A DNA stretch of 64,000 bases from Oscillospiraceae bacterium (lineage in GTDB: Bacteria > Bacillota > Clostridia > Oscillospirales > Acutalibacteraceae): contig CAJTCS010000004.1 of NCBI GenBank assembly GCA_910574995.1, positions 1 to 64,000 of the forward strand, in the 5' to 3' direction. Below the pieces are notes generated by a model, which searched no databases, was not told the origin of the DNA, and saw only the letters and a program-made list of their open reading frames with translations. The position numbers and the translations under genes are program-made. This document shows positions 22,639 through 39,858 of this stretch, piece by piece (the stretch's first letter is position 1; each line of letters begins with the position of its first letter).

Positions 22639-24864
22639 TCAATCCAACAGGCGGCGCAGGGCCTCTGCATTTTCCTGCTGGAGGTCTTTCAAACGCTGGG
22701 TATGGGCCATCCGCTCTTCCCGGGAGCCAGGAGCGGCCAAGGCGGAGTCTACCGCCGCTGCCAGGTTCCCCGGCGTCACATCCTCCAGGCTGATACACTG
22801 GCCATAGCCCAGGTATCGCAGGAAGGAACTAATTTTAGGGTCATAGGACACGCCCACCATGGGCAGCCCGCTGAGGGAAGAAAAGATCAGCCCATGCAGG
22901 CGCATGGATACCACTATGCGCATATATCGCAGCACCGTGATAATCAGCTCTGGCTCCTCCAGGTCGTCCAGGACGATACAGGGCCCTTCTATGGCAGCGG
23001 CTACCTTCTGGGCTGCGGCGGTATCCGGCCCCCGGTTCAGGGACAGGAACACAGGCGTAAGGCCGTGGGCCTGGCTGGCATGGCGGGCGCATTGGGCAAA
23101 AGCCGGGGCTTTCCCGGTGAAGCCCTGCCAGCTGCGCAGCATAAAACAGATGTAATCCCCTTTTGGGGAGAGGCCGTGGGCCTCCAGATAGGCCAGCGCC
23201 TCTTCTTCCGGGGCGGGGGGCAGCACCAGGGCGGGGTCCGAGCTGAGGAGGGCGGTGGGGCGGGTGACGCCAAAGCCTTCCAGCTCCCGCAGGGAATCCT
23301 CTTCCCGCAGGGTAATGGTATCTACCGAACTGTTCAGCACCCGGCGCACCAGGAACTTATTGAACCGCCCCTTCACCGGGCCGATGCCGCAGCCGTACAT
23401 ATCCACCCGGTTGCCCAGGCGCTTGGCGGCCCACAGGGTGAACAAATAATACCACAAGCTGCGCTGGCTGGTAGCGTTCTGGATAAGGGTGCCGCCACCG
23501 TTGATATACAGCCGGGAGCTGGCCAAGGCCCGCAGCATGCCAGGGATATTCAAGGTATAGATAGACCCCACCCGGTGGCGCTTTTTGACGCTGTCTGTGT
23601 TCTTGGCAAGGACCGTGATGGGGAGGTCCTTATCCAGGCCCTTTACCGAGCGGATGATAGAACGCAGGATGGCGTCGTCGCCGATGTTGCCATGGCCGTA
23701 GGCCCCGCAGATGACAGCGCCCCGGCGTTTGCCCTGGGACTTTTCCCGGGCAAACCGGCGCTGTACGTCCCTGTATATCTCCAGCTGGTAGTCTACCATA
23801 TGGGAAAGGGAGAACTCCCGCTCCGCCTTCTCATACAGCCTGTCCCCCAGCTGCCTGCGCAGGGCCGGGTCGTTGCCCAGGCTGGCCAGGTACCCGGCCA
23901 GCTGTTGGAAGTCGCCGGGCTCGAACATGTACCCGTTCACACCATGGTCTATGATGGTGGGCACGCCCCCCACCCGGGTGGACAGGGTTGCCAGCCGGAA
24001 GCGGGTGCCCTCTACCAAGGCGTAGGGGAAGCCCTCGGAAAGGGATGAGAGGAGGTTTATGTCCAATGCGTTATAAAACGACGGCATGTCCTTTACCCAG
24101 CCGGCAAAGCATACCCGGTTTTCGATGCCCAATGAACGGGCCAGCTCCCGCAGCTTCCGCTCGTCTTCCCCGTCCCCCGCGCAGACCAGCTTCAGGCGGG
24201 GGCACTTCTCGCTGGCCAGCTTCATAGCCCGCAGCAAGGTGGCGTGGTCCTTCACAGGGGTAAGCCGGGCCACGATCCCTACCACCACGTCCCCCTCCTG
24301 GCAGTCTAGGCCCAGTGAGCGTAAGAACTCCCCCCGGGGCACGCACCGCACGGGGGACTGGAAGTCGATACCGTTATAGATGGTATAGATGCGCTCTGCT
24401 GGGAAATCCCGCTGGATGAGGGCGTCTGTTACAGGCCCCGCCACGCCGATGTAATAATCCATCTTCCGCAGCGCCCAGGCGTTGGTAGTACCATACACCA
24501 GCCGCGCCATAAACCTGCCCAGGTAATCCAGCCGGTAGTCGCTGTGTATGGTGGTGACCACCGGCACGCCCAGGCGCTTTTTCAGCAGCACGCCCATCAG
24601 GTTGCCCCGGGCCCCGTGGCAGTGGAGCACGTCCACCTTCCCCTGTGCCAGCAGCTTTTTCAGGGGGCCCAGGTCGGAAAAGGGGTTGCCGGAATCGATG
24701 GCATGCACGGGGATGCCCATTTTTTCCGCATCCTCTGAGAATTCCCCCCGGCGGAAGCAGACCAGGTTTGCCTCTATATGCTTATTCAGCTCTTGCAAAA
24801 GGCCCAGCACATGGGTCTTCGCGCCGCCTGTATCGCCCCCGCCTATCAGATGCACCACTCGCAT
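22639..24864 (-). CDS. Bifunctional GT4 glycosyltransferase and CsaB-type polysaccharide pyruvyltransferase
   Basis: 741 residues in two domains. Residues 1-~365 are a GT4 glycosyltransferase: LIGGGDTGGAKTHVLGLL, VDVLHCHGARG, VVGIVARLTPVKDHATLLRA and the EGFPYALVEG donor-site motif (E-x7-E type). From ~385 a CsaB-like domain begins with AVICGAYGHGNIGDDAIL, followed by INGGGTLIQ, YGCGIGP and SMRLHGLIF, all typical of polysaccharide pyruvyltransferases. CsaB adds a pyruvate ketal to secondary wall polymer, the ligand of SLH domains. No membrane segment is seen, so it acts at the cytoplasmic face. The gene follows the iron transporter ATPase after 51 bases. SLH proteins are encoded at 38554 and 55483. 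Confidence 0.85.
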   Translation of the reverse strand: MRVVHLIGGGDTGGAKTHVLGLLQELNKHIEANLVCFRRGEFSEDAEKMGIPVHAIDSGNPFSDLGPLKKLLAQGKVDVLHCHGARGNLMGVLLKKRLGVPVVTTIHSDYRLDYLGRFMARLVYGTTNAWALRKMDYYIGVAGPVTDALIQRDFPAERIYTIYNGIDFQSPVRCVPRGEFLRSLGLDCQEGDVVVGIVARLTPVKDHATLLRAMKLASEKCPRLKLVCAGDGEDERKLRELARSLGIENRVCFAGWVKDMPSFYNALDINLLSSLSEGFPYALVEGTRFRLATLSTRVGGVPTIIDHGVNGYMFEPGDFQQLAGYLASLGNDPALRRQLGDRLYEKAEREFSLSHMVDYQLEIYRDVQRRFAREKSQGKRRGAVICGAYGHGNIGDDAILRSIIRSVKGLDKDLPITVLAKNTDSVKKRHRVGSIYTLNIPGMLRALASSRLYINGGGTLIQNATSQRSLWYYLFTLWAAKRLGNRVDMYGCGIGPVKGRFNKFLVRRVLNSSVDTITLREEDSLRELEGFGVTRPTALLSSDPALVLPPAPEEEALAYLEAHGLSPKGDYICFMLRSWQGFTGKAPAFAQCARHASQAHGLTPVFLSLNRGPDTAAAQKVAAAIEGPCIVLDDLEEPELIITVLRYMRIVVSMRLHGLIFSSLSGLPMVGVSYDPKISSFLRYLGYGQCISLEDVTPGNLAAAVDSALAAPGSREERMAHTQRLKDLQQENAEALRRLLD

Positions 24865-33588: not shown

Positions 33589-36500
33589 ATGAACATACGA
33601 AACCGTATCCTTTCCGGGCTGCTGGCCTTGGCTTTGCTGCTGCCCATGGGGCTTCCGGCCTTGGCAGCGGACGCCGGCGCCCCGGAAGAGGGCTTTGGCG
33701 CCCCGCAGGCTGTTGGCCAGCTGCAGGCTACCCTGCGGCTGGACCTGGCCCAAAGCCAGGCAGCCCTGGAGAGCCGTAACGTCCAGGCTACCCTTCTACA
33801 AGGGGAAGAGACCCTGGGCCAGGCTGGCCTGTGGGACAGCTCTACCCAAAGCCTGGGGGCGTACCCGGCCTCTGTCCAGCTGAAAAACGCCGACGGGGGG
33901 GACGATACTATCGGATGGCCCAAATTTGTCACCCTGACCGTAGGGGACCTGCCCCAGGGGGACTATACCCTGCGCTTTACCGGCCTGGGGTACAAGGCCT
34001 TTTCCTATGACGTCCCTTTGCAGACCCATTCCCAGCATTTGATACTGGGCAACGGCGGCGCTGCCTTTACCCTGGGCGACCTGAACGGCGACGGCCAGGT
34101 GGACACCGCCGACCGGGATGTGCTGGCCGGGAAGCTGGGCGGCGCAGACCCCCTTTGCGACCTGGACGGCGACGGGGAGGTTGGCCTGGCAGACCTGGTA
34201 TCCCTGATGAAGAACCTGGACGTCCAAGGGGAAGCAGAGCTGATGAGCACCACCCTGCTGGCGCCCCCCGTAGAGCTGGAAGGCCTGACAGAGGGCGGCG
34301 CACAGGTGGCGGAGGGCGACCTGCGGGATCTTTTTGCTGACAACGGCCAGGGCGTTACCTTGCGGGCCGAAGGCAGCGTGCTGGACCTGCCTATTGGCTT
34401 TACCGAGCCGGTGGAGATGGCCCAGATCCAGATTGCGGCCCCGGAAAACGGCGGCATGGACACCGGCGCGGTCCTGGTGGAATATGAAGACGGGCACACG
34501 GAATCGCTGCCATTTGACGCGGTATTGCCCGAAGGGGTGTACGCCATCGGCAAGACCGAGGGCGTGCGCACCATCACCCTGGACCTGGGCCGGCGGGTGC
34601 CTGTGAAAAAGATCACCGTCTCGGTGGAAAAGACGGAGGACGGCTACGTCTCGGTAGACACCATCCAGTTCCTGAAGGATATCGTGCCGGAAAACCCCGT
34701 CGCGCCCAACCGGATGGTGAACGGCCTGCACGCCACAGCCGGGAGCGAATCGGCCACACTGAAATGGAAAGAACTGCCCAATGTCACCGGCTACCGGGTG
34801 GACTATTGGCCAGACGGGGAGGAATCCAACAAAAGAAGCCTGCCCGTAAACGTGCCCTATGCCCAGGTAACCGGGCTGGAAAACCTGCAGAAGTACTGGT
34901 TCCAGGTTACCCCCACCGCCGAGGGCTGGGAAGGGGACGCCTGCCAGCCTGTGGACGCCACGCCCCAGCCCAGCAAAAGCCCCAATGCCCCGGACATGGT
35001 GAGCATTACCGAGCTGGACGGGGCCCTGGGCGTTTCTTGGAAGGCCAGCGAGGGCGCCACCTATTATGAGGTATACTATAAAGAGCAAAGCTCTTCTGGG
35101 GCCTATCAGCGGATTGGCGGGAGCCTGGCCGCCACCAGCACCACCATCACCAACCTGCGCAATGGCGTGGTATACCAGATCTACATCGTGGCAGGCAACG
35201 ACGTGGGCAAAAGCGGCCCCTCCCGCATAGCGGAAGGCACCCCCAAGGCGGTGGACTACGACCGGCCGGAGGGCCTGCCCACCTCCAGCCTGCTGAGCCC
35301 CAGCAAAATCAAAAGCATCCGTTTGGGCGCGCCCAACAACTATAAGCAAGACGATTATACGGAAGAAGCGCCCTTTAAACCGGAAAACATGATAGACGGG
35401 GACTACCGCACCCACTGGACCGCTTCGAATTGGTACGGCAACGAACACGTTATCACCACCTTTACCGAGCCTGTGGACCTGCAAAGCGTGATCTGGTCCC
35501 CCCGGCTGGACGGGAACTACCCCCAATGGCTGCGGGCCTACAGCATCCAGGTCTGGTATGAAGGGGAAGACCTTTCCCAGGCTGGGCACCTGCTGATGCC
35601 CGTGCCTGAGCGGGGCGGCTTCGACAGCAACGGCGGCTCTGGCGGCGGGGACGTGCACACCTGGCCCAACATCCCCAACCGGGGGTCTATCCCCACCACC
35701 AAGTTCGGCATACTCCCCTTCCCCCCCGCCCAAAATGTGGTACAGATCAGCGTGGCGGTGGAACAGGCAGACTATAACCTGGTCAGCTGTTCAGAGCTGA
35801 TGTTTATGGAGTATGATCCTGCCCACTGCCTGCCAGACGAGATTGCGGCCCTATTCACCGACGGGCTGTGCACCCAGCTGAAGCTGGGCGTGACCCAAGA
35901 GCGCATCGACGCCTTGCGGGAGCGGCTGAACAGCGACGAAAAATACTATTATGTAGACCTGAACACCCTGGCCGACGAGCTGAAGCTGGCAGAAGAGCTG
36001 CTATCGGGCGCCACCCCCTATGTGCGGGAAGAAGTACAATCCCGCAGCGGGGCCGCAGACGGCGCCAAATACAGCCAGGGGGGCAGCGACCTGCAGCCTT
36101 TGGGCGCGGCGGCCAAAGCCGGCCAAGAGGTGACCATATACGCCTCGGGCATCCCCGAGGGGGAGACCGTGACCGTGTATGCCAGCCAGTTCAACGCGGA
36201 AGCCTCCGCCTGGCGGGCCGAGGTGGGCACCCTGCAAAACGGCCGCAATACCCTTCTGGTACCCAAAATTGGCAGCCAGAATACGCCCCGGGGCGGCAGC
36301 CTGTATTTTACCTACAGCGGCACAAAACCCCAGGATATCCGGATGCATGTGCGCCGGGCCACCGCCATCCCCACGCTGGAGCTTTCGGGCTGGTATGGGA
36401 TGACAGAGGCGGCGCGCCGGAACGCCATTGAGGCTTACCTGACAGAGCTGGAAGCCTATGTGGCCCAGGCCGGCCTGACCGAGGCAAACAAAGCCACCGA

Positions 36501-38550
36501 CTGCCTGAACGTTACCGAGATCTCCACCCCCACGGTCCTGCTTTCCTTGCCCGCGCTGGCCGTGTGGAACAACGGCCCCGCCGGGGTATCGGCAAAGGCG
36601 GAGGTGCTGTTCCAGTCCATCCTGGCCTGGGAGGATACCATGCACATCTGCAAGTATACCCAGGGCATTGACAATACCTATGGGGACAACGACATGCAGA
36701 CCCGCCAAAACGTGCGCTGCATGCAGATGTTCGCGGGGGCCTTCATGTACGCCGCAGGCAACCACATTGGCATCGGCTATGGCTCTTGCGCCGGGATGGT
36801 GAGCGGCAAGCCCATTTCCGCCCTTTCAACAGGCTTTTCCGCGAACAGCCTGTTCGGCTGGGGCATCGCCCATGAGATCGGCCACAACATGGATAAGCTG
36901 GGCCGGGCGGAAATTACCAACAACATCTATTCCCTGATGGTCCAGACCTATGACGGCAAGGAAAACACCCTGGCCTCACGGCTGGAGAAGAGCGGCAAAT
37001 ATGCCTCTATCTTCAACAAAACAGCCCAGGGCTATCCCGGGGCCTCTAACGATGTATTCACCCAGCTGGGCCTGTATTGGCAGCTGCACCTGGCCTATGA
37101 CGGTGGGGATGACCCCATGGGCTTCTACAACCGCTTCTTCAAGGCCTGGAAGGCCGGCACCTATACCCAAGGCTTCGCCGAGCTTTCCTATGACGACAAG
37201 ATGGCCCTGACGGCGGCCGGTACCGCCCAGCGGGACCTGACCGAGTTTTTCACCCGGTGGGGCATGGTGCTAAGCGAAGAAGTAAAGGCCAAGCTTGCCA
37301 CCTATCCCGCCGAGCCCCGGGCTGTTTGGTACCTGAGCGACCAGAGCCGCCGGGACCGGCTGGCTGGAAAAGCTGCCGGCTCTGTCAACCACCTGCCCAC
37401 AGCCGGCATGAAGCCGGGCAGCGACACGGAGGTGGAGATCCGCACGGCCATACGGGATTCCCAGGGCATCCAGGGCTATGAGATCCTGCGGGACAACAAG
37501 CCCATTGCCTTTGTACAAAGCGCGGCGGTACAGGACGGCCTGCTGTATACAGACGTGATTGGCAGCGGCAACCACCTGGCCTTCACCTATTCGGTGAAAG
37601 CCTATGACAGCCTGGGCAACCTGGTGGATACCGCCGAGGCCGGGCAAGTGCGCATTGCCTATGACAAGACCGTGCCCGCCACAGCCTACACCCTTAGCCG
37701 CACTGGGGACACCGCCACTTTCACATTAAAGGAAGAAACCGCCGTATCCGGCCTGAAAATTTCTGGCGGCACAAGGCCGGCTTCTGGCGTCTATACCGTA
37801 GCGGTCACCCAGGAAGACGGTTCTACCGTTACCGCCCGCAAGGGCTCTTTCGACACGGGCAACCAGGCCGTGGACGACCAGGACAGCTATCTGACCTACT
37901 TCAACAAGCCCGGCACTGCCAGCACAGACACCCGTATCTGGACTTATGACGCCAAGACCGTAACCGTAACCGGCATCCCGGCCTCTGTGCCGGACAGTGC
38001 CATCCAGCTGGTCAGCTACGCTGGGGACGACGTGGCGTTCCTTACCGGCGAGGACGGCTTTATGGGCCGGCTGCAGGAGGACTACCGTTATGGCGACGGC
38101 CAGGATGACGTGATCCCCGCGGGCACGCTGGTGATTGTGGGCACCTACCGGGGCGACCCCGTGTACAACACTTTGCACATCAAGGGCAAATTCTCTAAGA
38201 CCGTGGCCGCCGTGGACGAGGATGGCAACGAGACGGTACAGGTGACGGAAGAGATACGGGATATCGACGGCTATGCCCTTATGTTCGCAGAGATACCGGA
38301 GGACCAACAGGTCAGCGATATCAGCGACGGGCTGTTCCTCTTTGTCCCCAACGTACAGAAAGAGGCGGAGCTGCAGGACGCCACCCATTGTGACGGGGAA
38401 AATCTGCTGCCCAGCCAGGTCATGGCCGAACTGTACCGGCAAGACGACCCCAACGGCGGCGGGGGCCAGCGCACCACAGCCCAAACCCTGTGGACAAACA
38501 GCCCCGGCGGCGTGGACCTGCCCATTATCCTATTGGAATCGGAGAAATAA
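33589..38550 (+). CDS. Secreted multidomain M60-like (mucinase-type) metallopeptidase with dockerin
   Basis: 1653 residues. A signal peptide (1-27, ending LPALAAD) directs export. Domains in order: an N-terminal beta region (40-150); a type-I-like dockerin (162-212) with two calcium loops, DLNGDGQVDTAD and DLDGDGEVGLAD; a beta-sandwich possibly of CBM32/discoidin type (235-365); two fibronectin-III domains (375-555); a discoidin-like domain (565-745, ENMIDGDYRTHWTAS); a linker; then the M60 peptidase (about 925-1240) with HEIGHN at 1095-1100 and the third ligand Glu at 1108, fitting HExxH-x8-E; and C-terminal Ig-like and unassigned domains. M60 enzymes cleave O-glycosylated proteins such as mucin. 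AAAGGAAG precedes the start. An SLH protein gene follows three bases after the stop. Confidence 0.88.
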   Translation: MNIRNRILSGLLALALLLPMGLPALAADAGAPEEGFGAPQAVGQLQATLRLDLAQSQAALESRNVQATLLQGEETLGQAGLWDSSTQSLGAYPASVQLKNADGGDDTIGWPKFVTLTVGDLPQGDYTLRFTGLGYKAFSYDVPLQTHSQHLILGNGGAAFTLGDLNGDGQVDTADRDVLAGKLGGADPLCDLDGDGEVGLADLVSLMKNLDVQGEAELMSTTLLAPPVELEGLTEGGAQVAEGDLRDLFADNGQGVTLRAEGSVLDLPIGFTEPVEMAQIQIAAPENGGMDTGAVLVEYEDGHTESLPFDAVLPEGVYAIGKTEGVRTITLDLGRRVPVKKITVSVEKTEDGYVSVDTIQFLKDIVPENPVAPNRMVNGLHATAGSESATLKWKELPNVTGYRVDYWPDGEESNKRSLPVNVPYAQVTGLENLQKYWFQVTPTAEGWEGDACQPVDATPQPSKSPNAPDMVSITELDGALGVSWKASEGATYYEVYYKEQSSSGAYQRIGGSLAATSTTITNLRNGVVYQIYIVAGNDVGKSGPSRIAEGTPKAVDYDRPEGLPTSSLLSPSKIKSIRLGAPNNYKQDDYTEEAPFKPENMIDGDYRTHWTASNWYGNEHVITTFTEPVDLQSVIWSPRLDGNYPQWLRAYSIQVWYEGEDLSQAGHLLMPVPERGGFDSNGGSGGGDVHTWPNIPNRGSIPTTKFGILPFPPAQNVVQISVAVEQADYNLVSCSELMFMEYDPAHCLPDEIAALFTDGLCTQLKLGVTQERIDALRERLNSDEKYYYVDLNTLADELKLAEELLSGATPYVREEVQSRSGAADGAKYSQGGSDLQPLGAAAKAGQEVTIYASGIPEGETVTVYASQFNAEASAWRAEVGTLQNGRNTLLVPKIGSQNTPRGGSLYFTYSGTKPQDIRMHVRRATAIPTLELSGWYGMTEAARRNAIEAYLTELEAYVAQAGLTEANKATDCLNVTEISTPTVLLSLPALAVWNNGPAGVSAKAEVLFQSILAWEDTMHICKYTQGIDNTYGDNDMQTRQNVRCMQMFAGAFMYAAGNHIGIGYGSCAGMVSGKPISALSTGFSANSLFGWGIAHEIGHNMDKLGRAEITNNIYSLMVQTYDGKENTLASRLEKSGKYASIFNKTAQGYPGASNDVFTQLGLYWQLHLAYDGGDDPMGFYNRFFKAWKAGTYTQGFAELSYDDKMALTAAGTAQRDLTEFFTRWGMVLSEEVKAKLATYPAEPRAVWYLSDQSRRDRLAGKAAGSVNHLPTAGMKPGSDTEVEIRTAIRDSQGIQGYEILRDNKPIAFVQSAAVQDGLLYTDVIGSGNHLAFTYSVKAYDSLGNLVDTAEAGQVRIAYDKTVPATAYTLSRTGDTATFTLKEETAVSGLKISGGTRPASGVYTVAVTQEDGSTVTARKGSFDTGNQAVDDQDSYLTYFNKPGTASTDTRIWTYDAKTVTVTGIPASVPDSAIQLVSYAGDDVAFLTGEDGFMGRLQEDYRYGDGQDDVIPAGTLVIVGTYRGDPVYNTLHIKGKFSKTVAAVDEDGNETVQVTEEIRDIDGYALMFAEIPEDQQVSDISDGLFLFVPNVQKEAELQDATHCDGENLLPSQVMAELYRQDDPNGGGGQRTTAQTLWTNSPGGVDLPIILLESEK

Positions 38551-38553
38551 GCT

Positions 38554-39858
38554 ATGAAAAGAACCCTTCGAAAGACCCTTTCCATGCTGCTTTCCTGCGC
38601 CCTGCTTCTGGGGCTGCTGCCGGCCTATTCCTGGGCGGCGGACACGGAAGGCATGGCCTTGCTTTACACACAGGACTCCCAGGGGAACGTAGACCTGGAG
38701 ATTGCCGGGATAGACGGTGGGAAAACGGTATACGGCGTACAGCTGGAGCTGGCCCTGGCGGGCAGCTATCAAGCCGACCAGGTGATGCTGGCCCCCCAGG
38801 ACAGCCTGGCCTACAGCCCCGCCCAGGGGTATAACGCCTCTTACCAGGACGGCCAGACCATCGTGACCCTGTACGTAGCCTCTGCCCATGCCCTGAACGT
38901 GGGGGATTCCCTCCCCTTGGGCAGGCTGACAGCCGGCGGCATGGGCATCATCCCAGAAAGCGCCCGGCTACTTCTGCTGGGCGCGGACGGTACGGCCGGG
39001 GAACTGGCTTCCGTCCCCGTACGGCAGTCTTCCAACGTATCCGACCTGCCCTTTGGGGACAGCTTCCCCATCTCCTCCCCTAAAACGCCCCATGGCTCTG
39101 TACAGGTGCTGGCGGCTGCCCGGGAGAATCAAACCGTAACCGTCACCCTTACCCCGGATACAGGCTGCTCCGCAGGCCCCCTATCTGTTGTGGATGGGGC
39201 TGGGAAGCCCGTCCCCTTGCTGAAAGCAGACGACACCCACTACAGCTTCCGCATGCCCGGCTCTGCCGTAGAGGTAAAGGCCGTCTTCCTTCCCGGAGGG
39301 GGGAGCACGCTGCCCTTTACGGATGTACCGGATACCAAATGGATACGCGACGCGGTGGAGTATGTCTACCAGCGGGGCATGATGGCCGGTACCAGCAGCA
39401 CCCAGTTCGAGCCGGAGACCCCCACTACCCGCGGCATGATCATTTCGATCCTCTACCGGCTGGAGGGCTCCCCCGACGTAGGTACGGCCGCTTTCCCCGA
39501 TGTGCCCCAGGGCCAGTGGTATACAAAGGCCGTAGCCTGGGCGGCGAAAGAGAAGATTGTGCATGGCTATGACAATGGGAACTTTGGCCCCAACGATACT
39601 ATCACCCGGGAGCAGATGGTCTCCATTTTGTACCGCTACGCCTCTTACAAGGGGTGCGACCTGTCGGCTACGGCTGACCTGTCCGGGTTCCAGGATCTTT
39701 CCAGCCTGGCCGCCTATGCCTCGAATCCCATGCATTGGGCCGTAGGCAATGGGTTTGTCTCCGGCACTGGGAACAACAGCCTGTCCCCCAAGGGCAGCGC
39801 CACCCGGTGCCAGGCCGCGTCCATCTTAATGCGCTTCTGTAAGAAGTTCGATCTATAA
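38554..39858 (+). CDS. SLH-anchored surface protein with candidate cohesin-like domain
   Basis: 434 residues. A signal peptide (1-29, ending SWAAD) precedes a beta-rich region (about 33-150) with features like a cohesin: a GVQLELALAGSY strand, VTLYVASAHALNVGDSLPLGRL and a final hydrophobic strand; this assignment is tentative. Residues 180-245 form a second small beta domain with the SFRMPGSAVEVKAVF end typical of InlB-B-repeat-like modules. Three SLH domains follow (254-305, 314-364, 378-432), with TRGMIISILYR and TREQMVSILYR as the core motif; the third is diverged. SLH domains bind pyruvylated wall polymer. The gene starts three bases after the M60 stop with CGGAG in place, so it is coupled. 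It is probably the wall anchor for the dockerin enzyme. Confidence 0.85.
   Translation: MKRTLRKTLSMLLSCALLLGLLPAYSWAADTEGMALLYTQDSQGNVDLEIAGIDGGKTVYGVQLELALAGSYQADQVMLAPQDSLAYSPAQGYNASYQDGQTIVTLYVASAHALNVGDSLPLGRLTAGGMGIIPESARLLLLGADGTAGELASVPVRQSSNVSDLPFGDSFPISSPKTPHGSVQVLAAARENQTVTVTLTPDTGCSAGPLSVVDGAGKPVPLLKADDTHYSFRMPGSAVEVKAVFLPGGGSTLPFTDVPDTKWIRDAVEYVYQRGMMAGTSSTQFEPETPTTRGMIISILYRLEGSPDVGTAAFPDVPQGQWYTKAVAWAAKEKIVHGYDNGNFGPNDTITREQMVSILYRYASYKGCDLSATADLSGFQDLSSLAAYASNPMHWAVGNGFVSGTGNNSLSPKGSATRCQAASILMRFCKKFDL

Follow-up and report, generated by a model that had tools for sequence, protein, structure and literature searches.

The two-gene unit and its domains

The stretch of DNA analysed here, hereafter the window, comprises positions 1–64,000 of contig CAJTCS010000004.1 of an Oscillospiraceae bacterium (GCA_910574995.1) and contains a two-gene unit on the plus strand, in which a gene for a metallopeptidase of family M60 is followed by a gene for an anchor protein with SLH domains. 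The M60 gene starts with an ATG at 33589 and stops at 38548–38550, and the ATG of the anchor gene lies at 38554, three bases past this stop. Both products carry a signal peptide, as judged by eye. The features of the pair are as follows.

33589..38550, plus strand: secreted M60-family metallopeptidase with an internal dockerin, 1653 amino acids (Peptidase_M60, E 1e-17)
33706..34044, plus strand: Ig/carboxypeptidase-regulatory-like module, similar to the X modules of dockerin proteins, approximately residues 40–152, just N-terminal of the dockerin
34057..34224, plus strand: dockerin, residues 157–212 (Dockerin_1 matches all 73 family members at E ≤ 1)
34078–34113 and 34159–34194, plus strand: calcium loops D164–D175 and D191–D202
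35005..35238, plus strand: fibronectin type III domain, the better of two stretches, residues 473–550 (Pfam fn3, E 3.6e-15)
35368..35571, plus strand: F5/8 type C domain, residues 594–661 (Pfam F5_F8_type_C, E 1.6e-6, 28.7 bits against a cut-off of 28.2), which we take to be CBM32-like
36724..37263, plus strand: M60 catalytic domain, residues 1046–1225 (PF13402), with HExxHx8E at 36871–36912
38554..39858, plus strand: anchor protein of 434 amino acids with signal peptide, cohesin-like domain, InlB-type repeat, and three SLH domains
38635..39045, plus strand: cohesin-like domain, candidate dockerin socket, residues 28–164
39082..39291, plus strand: divergent InlB B-repeat (Flg_new_2), spacer, residues 177–246 (Pfam E 2.7e-4, just under the cut-off)
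39313..39855, plus strand: three SLH domains, cell-wall anchor, from approximately residue 254

The assignment of the enzyme to family M60, made in a first-pass annotation of the window from the letters alone, was borne out by a PF13402 match of 65 bits (cut-off 25.8) and an intact gluzincin motif HExxHx8E, which begins at H1095, is invariant in all 11 aligned orthologues, and is kept in 73 of the 74 M60 relatives longer than 1200 amino acids. The motif fits the catalytic pattern HExxHx(8,28)E of M60-like proteins, as given in the parts of the family survey drawn on here (PMC3267712). From its family membership, the window enzyme would be expected to cleave O-glycosylated, mucin-like proteins.

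The SLH assignment of the same annotation was equally sound (Pfam SLH, E 4e-33, in three stretches). Together with the signal peptide and the presence of a CsaB-like pyruvyltransferase in the genome, the three SLH domains characterise the anchor as an SLH surface protein, as the CsaB-type modification is what SLH domains bind. The source genome (3.45 Mb) has a single CsaB-like pyruvyltransferase match, which lies inside the window, where a 741-residue open reading frame (ORF; 22639–24864, minus strand) joins a GT4-type glycosyltransferase look-alike (by eye) and the CsaB-like pyruvyltransferase (PF04230, E 3.9e-40).

The dockerin and the candidate socket

Both calcium loops of the window dockerin follow the pattern Dx[DN]xDGx[IV]xxxD and are located where the first-pass annotation had placed them. 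That annotation called the dockerin strong, which holds for the family and not for the window copy taken alone. Across the 73 aligned members (alignment A4, 73 of 74 available rows for the X-dockerin part, L084 omitted), D175, D191, and D202 are invariably aspartate, and Dockerin_1 (PF00404) matches every member, the window copy included, at E ≤ 1, with a best value of 1e-12. The window dockerin region on its own reaches E 0.014 and 16.0 bits against a cut-off of 22.9. A whole-protein Pfam scan of the window M60 protein gave no Dockerin_1 match at E ≤ 1, only EF-hand matches under the cut-off, and whole-protein Pfam and NCBIfam scans of the pair returned neither a dockerin above the cut-off nor a cohesin. 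In the dockerin-profile search of the source genome, the window dockerin was matched at E 3.7e-18, this copy being one of the profile's 39 rows (alignment A6 has 39 of 76 rows). We thus regard the dockerin call as modest for the window copy alone and firm for the family.

Solved structures point in the same direction. The family profile matches dockerins with E-values down to 8.7e-10, while calmodulin-type EF-hand proteins appear from about 4e-4 down. Among the best matches is 2jnk/2ozn (7e-9), presumably the dockerin of Clostridium perfringens and part of that organism's system on mucin-acting glycosidases. For X-dockerin dyads such as 5k39 and 2b59, the alignment begins within the preceding module and spans the module-dockerin junction; in the family, this module matches CarboxypepD_reg in 48 and PEGA in 39 of 73 members at E ≤ 1.

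The second dockerin repeat is more conserved than the first (e.g. positions 200–207 vs. 173–180), which suggests that the dockerin has one main binding face. The window copy deviates at S205 (tyrosine in 58 of 73 members, serine in one), M207, C190, and G199, and its linker is four residues shorter than in many relatives. It is thus among the more divergent copies and may be either retuned or decaying; the window socket retains Q36 and Y80, two residues of the patch described below.

The region of the anchor protein tentatively called cohesin-like by the first-pass annotation (residues 30–155) proved to be a real and conserved domain. Residues 28–164 are confidently predicted to adopt a cohesin-like fold, a nine-stranded jelly-roll with sheets 9-1-2-7-4 and 8-3-6-5, and the best matches to the predicted fold are cohesins (2vo8, 2jh2, and 2w1n, the X82 cohesins of C. 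perfringens). By sequence, a comparison with cohesin families did not return a match: sequence profiles (PF00963) do not recognise the domain as a cohesin, and the window copy matches no family in the domain library used. For 75 socket members, cohesin is not among the 25 of 39 families listed, a profile-profile comparison with Pfam cohesins aligned 28 columns at a probability of 18.5, too weak to use, and searches of PDB sequences with the socket domain gave no match. The socket belongs by sequence to no described cohesin type, its nearest structural relatives being the non-cellulosomal cohesins of C. perfringens.

With identities to the window copy of 13 to 49%, the aligned sockets (alignment A3, 75 of 78 available domain references; L072, L084, and L150 omitted) share a polar and aromatic patch on strands 3 and 6, formed by Y80 (71/75), Q36 (67/75), and T78 (59/75). 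The strands bearing this patch are those that face the dockerin in cohesins, according to the parts of PMC5429695 used here, so that its position on the expected sheet weakly supports dockerin binding. Read together, the conservation of the second dockerin repeat and the patch at Q36 and Y80 suggest that the partners bind in one mode, unlike type I pairs with their dual mode. Between the socket and the M60 protein (69 pairs, effective number 62), mutual information was not enriched at dockerin columns; phylogeny probably dominates this result, which we count as no support.

Pairing, specificity, and exchange of the anchor

A contig scan with the M60 alignment detected at least 334 relatives, of which the best 80 loci were kept, so that the following counts describe the nearest relatives. 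At three of the 80 loci the contig stops within the M60 gene, and at all other 77 a gene follows. Its start lies within 30 bases of the M60 stop in 69 of these 77 loci and overlaps the stop by four bases in 31 and by one base in five, with starts chosen mechanically; such overlaps suggest that the two genes are often translationally coupled. Socket profiles were built from four fifths of the downstream domains and applied to the remaining fifth, leaving out the fragment L150. They matched 76 of 76 downstream genes that had not contributed to the respective profile (E ≤ 4.9e-11), and no other ORF across the 80 loci matched at 1e-3. On the enzyme side, the dockerin profile matches all 75 M60 loci that reach the region; 38 of these are profile rows, and the 37 outside the profile all match as well (worst E 3.8e-16).

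General synteny was rejected as the cause of this pairing, as conservation is otherwise low among the flanking genes. One single-linkage cluster of 35 ORFs, of which 20 lie antisense within the partner gene and 15 are unchecked, spans 28 loci, and the next commonest flanking family is found in 11 of 80 loci. Carriers of the pair include Neglectibacter, Flintibacter muris, Flavonifractor, Pseudoflavonifractor, Anaerotignum (Lachnospirales), and an Erysipelotrichaceae genome. The two genes, for which the first-pass annotation had suggested a survey in related genomes, are thus adjacent far beyond the genus. At one locus (L285:6309-9426, genome G121), the M60 ORF is without its N-terminal part and the SLH domains of the partner lie in another frame, and both genes of the pair seem to be decaying together.

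The socket also appears specific to dockerin-bearing M60 genes. Among 60 genomes, source genome included, it occurs once in each of 11, and the same 11 hold a near-full-length M60 match; G014 and G016 have more distant M60 genes fused to SLH domains. The anchor protein as a whole gives 36 matches in the source genome. In 394 genomes of the order, some of which supplied profile rows, 21 genomes together contain 22 sockets, all of them adjacent to an M60 gene. Twenty of the 21 genomes have one socket, and G248 has two, each adjoining its own M60 gene. Counting the two rows of G267 as one broken gene, M60 is represented by 31 genes in 29 of the 394 genomes. Of the 22 socket-adjacent M60 genes, 21 have a confirmed dockerin, the remaining one being the N-terminally incomplete gene of G121. 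Three further dockerin-M60 genes are without a socket-profile match. In G229 and G379, the neighbour is divergent and similarly laid out (19.3 and 10.7 bits, respectively); that of G229 was not recovered at 1e-3 and is counted as divergent and not as a profile match, and that of G379 is present with no anchor identified. The third enzyme, that of G317, is itself fused to SLH. No dockerin is seen in six M60 genes (two in G060 and one each in G128, G322, G188, and G125), and no socket was found at the five with a visible downstream side, the gene in G322 running off its 6 kb contig.

This distribution bears on the possibility that the beta domain serves in carbohydrate binding or as a stalk, does not bind the dockerin, and is co-transcribed with the enzyme for a shared task, e.g. 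mucin adhesion. Against this, the socket was not found away from M60 genes in the 394 genomes (E ≤ 0.001) and is absent beside the five dockerin-less M60 genes. Cohesins, moreover, are the best fold matches of the domain, and a carbohydrate-binding role would leave the dockerins conserved in 75 of 75 loci without a partner. We thus consider this explanation unlikely.

A second alternative is that a different cohesin of the genome receives the M60 dockerin and that the SLH neighbour does something else. The source genome does have one Pfam cohesin match, in a protein encoded elsewhere (C1:406159), and G224 has five. However, seven of nine placeable socket-bearing genomes are without a Pfam cohesin match (G048 as listed and six by inference, in a search that missed the one of the source genome), and the cohesin at C1:406159 could be partnered by the second dockerin protein of the source genome, which has two dockerin-profile matches in all. 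Of the alternatives considered, this appears the least probable. An 864-residue protein encoded on contig C1 of the source genome (L061:7973-10567) contains a Pfam cohesin together with several near-identical repeats and, by eye, ends in a membrane helix. Elsewhere on C1, a 448-residue protein with a C-terminal dockerin is encoded (L062:7248-8594), and the two possibly form a second docking pair.

Variability is found in the means of attachment. Of the 77 partners, 74 have SLH in or just behind the gene, two have a C-terminal membrane helix (L133, Negativibacillus, and L149, Erysipelotrichaceae), and one is cut by the contig end. The neighbours in G224, G229, and G345 also end in a membrane helix, as judged by eye. 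No membrane helix at the C-terminus and no LPxTG motif was found in any of 74 M60 proteins. The anchors are thus interchangeable, and a change of anchor type while the socket stays is as expected if anchoring is the neighbour's job. In G014, G016, and G317, SLH is fused to the enzyme itself; the M60 proteins with C-terminally fused SLH are located at L059:6114-12323 (minus strand), L060:1-4446, and L270:26-6766. Whether the beta-rich stretch before SLH in these three proteins is the same socket was considered and is not claimed, as profile support is marginal: in an hmmsearch of three sequences, G317 reached E 0.0016 and G014 and G016 scored weaker, hhalign aligned 82 columns at a probability of 18.9, and the full-length fused proteins gave no significant match to the socket profile.

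The fused enzymes also weigh against docking as the dockerin's role, as G014 and G317 still show a dockerin (the contig of G016 lacks that end), perhaps acting there as an internal clamp. The dockerin-like EF-hand pair could accordingly be a calcium-dependent structural element of the enzyme with no external partner, a possibility to which its internal position near the N-terminus and the unequal conservation of its two repeats also lend some weight. Its close association with a neighbour of cohesin fold, together with the anchor swap, argues against a purely structural role, which we therefore regard as very unlikely.

A proposed docking pair and its relation to known systems

Taken together, the M60 enzyme and the anchor protein very probably form a dedicated docking pair of one enzyme and one anchor. 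Both proteins would be secreted, and the anchor would attach to the cell wall by means of its SLH domains. With the cohesin-like domain at its N-terminus, the anchor would bind the calcium-loaded dockerin of the M60 protein via sheet 8-3-6-5, probably one to one. The enzyme, which is without an anchor of its own, would thereby be kept at the surface, the sugar-binding and catalytic domains facing outwards, where it may cleave O-glycosylated, mucin-like host proteins. The first-pass annotation had described the locus as a minimal cellulosome-style scaffold. The dedicated enzyme-anchor pair in this description is supported, but the system is not a cellulosome: several cohesins gathering several dockerin enzymes, which define cellulosomes and mucinolysomes, are not seen, as each of the 11 relatives has one socket and, as far as seen, one client.

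In broader terms, we favour, with some reservation, the view that the socket represents a cohesin family that is missed by current sequence models and evolved with a single client, so that a mucin O-glycopeptidase is docked one to one by the product of a neighbouring gene in gut Clostridia and Erysipelotrichia, with the wall anchor freely exchanged between SLH, membrane helix, and fusion. If true, cohesin-dockerin docking would not be confined to the assembly of many-enzyme complexes but would also fasten one mucin protease to the surface by means of two parts, a use that surveys relying on Pfam cohesin models would miss. It would also add a bench-testable socket domain and a likely new orthogonal binding pair, and may provide many poorly known gut Clostridia with a defined way to attack the mucus layer. 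We found no description of an M60-dockerin anchor pair in the titles and abstract openings of the literature searched, which lay mostly outside subscription journals.

Among the closest parallels are the X82 cohesins of C. perfringens, which provide the best socket fold matches and likewise involve single cohesins and single dockerins on host-glycan enzymes. To our knowledge, no partner in the C. perfringens system is wall-anchored by SLH. Both partners there are enzymes, whereas the window pair consists of a dedicated anchor and an M60 protease client; the C. perfringens interactions are described as pairwise and between glycoside hydrolase proteins in the parts of PMC12997984 used here.

The window pair also resembles the SLH anchoring scaffoldins of cellulosomes in having a cohesin and three SLH domains on the anchor and an Ig-like module before the client's dockerin. 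In these scaffoldins, which are of the SdbA/OlpB type, the client is a scaffoldin carrying many enzymes. In contrast, the window enzyme would itself dock, its socket is not identifiable by sequence as a cohesin, and the source genome showed no scaffold with several cohesins.

With the M60-like mucinases (PMC3267712), the window enzyme shares the HExxHx8E motif, the F5/8 type C domain, and an occurrence in host-associated bacteria. Table 4 of this survey lists two of 415 proteins with a dockerin and one with SLH, and the portions of the paper drawn on here describe no anchor partner.

Finally, the Limousia mucinolysome (PMC12997984, 2026) is likewise a system of gut Clostridia with a mucin target, dockerin-bearing peptidases, and a wall-anchored cohesin protein. 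As far as the available parts of that paper describe it, this mucinolysome is a multi-enzyme system that was found with Pfam cohesin models and has a sortase anchor. The window system differs in each of these respects, as its socket is missed by Pfam cohesin models and it combines one enzyme with one anchor that is attached through SLH or, in some relatives, through a membrane helix.

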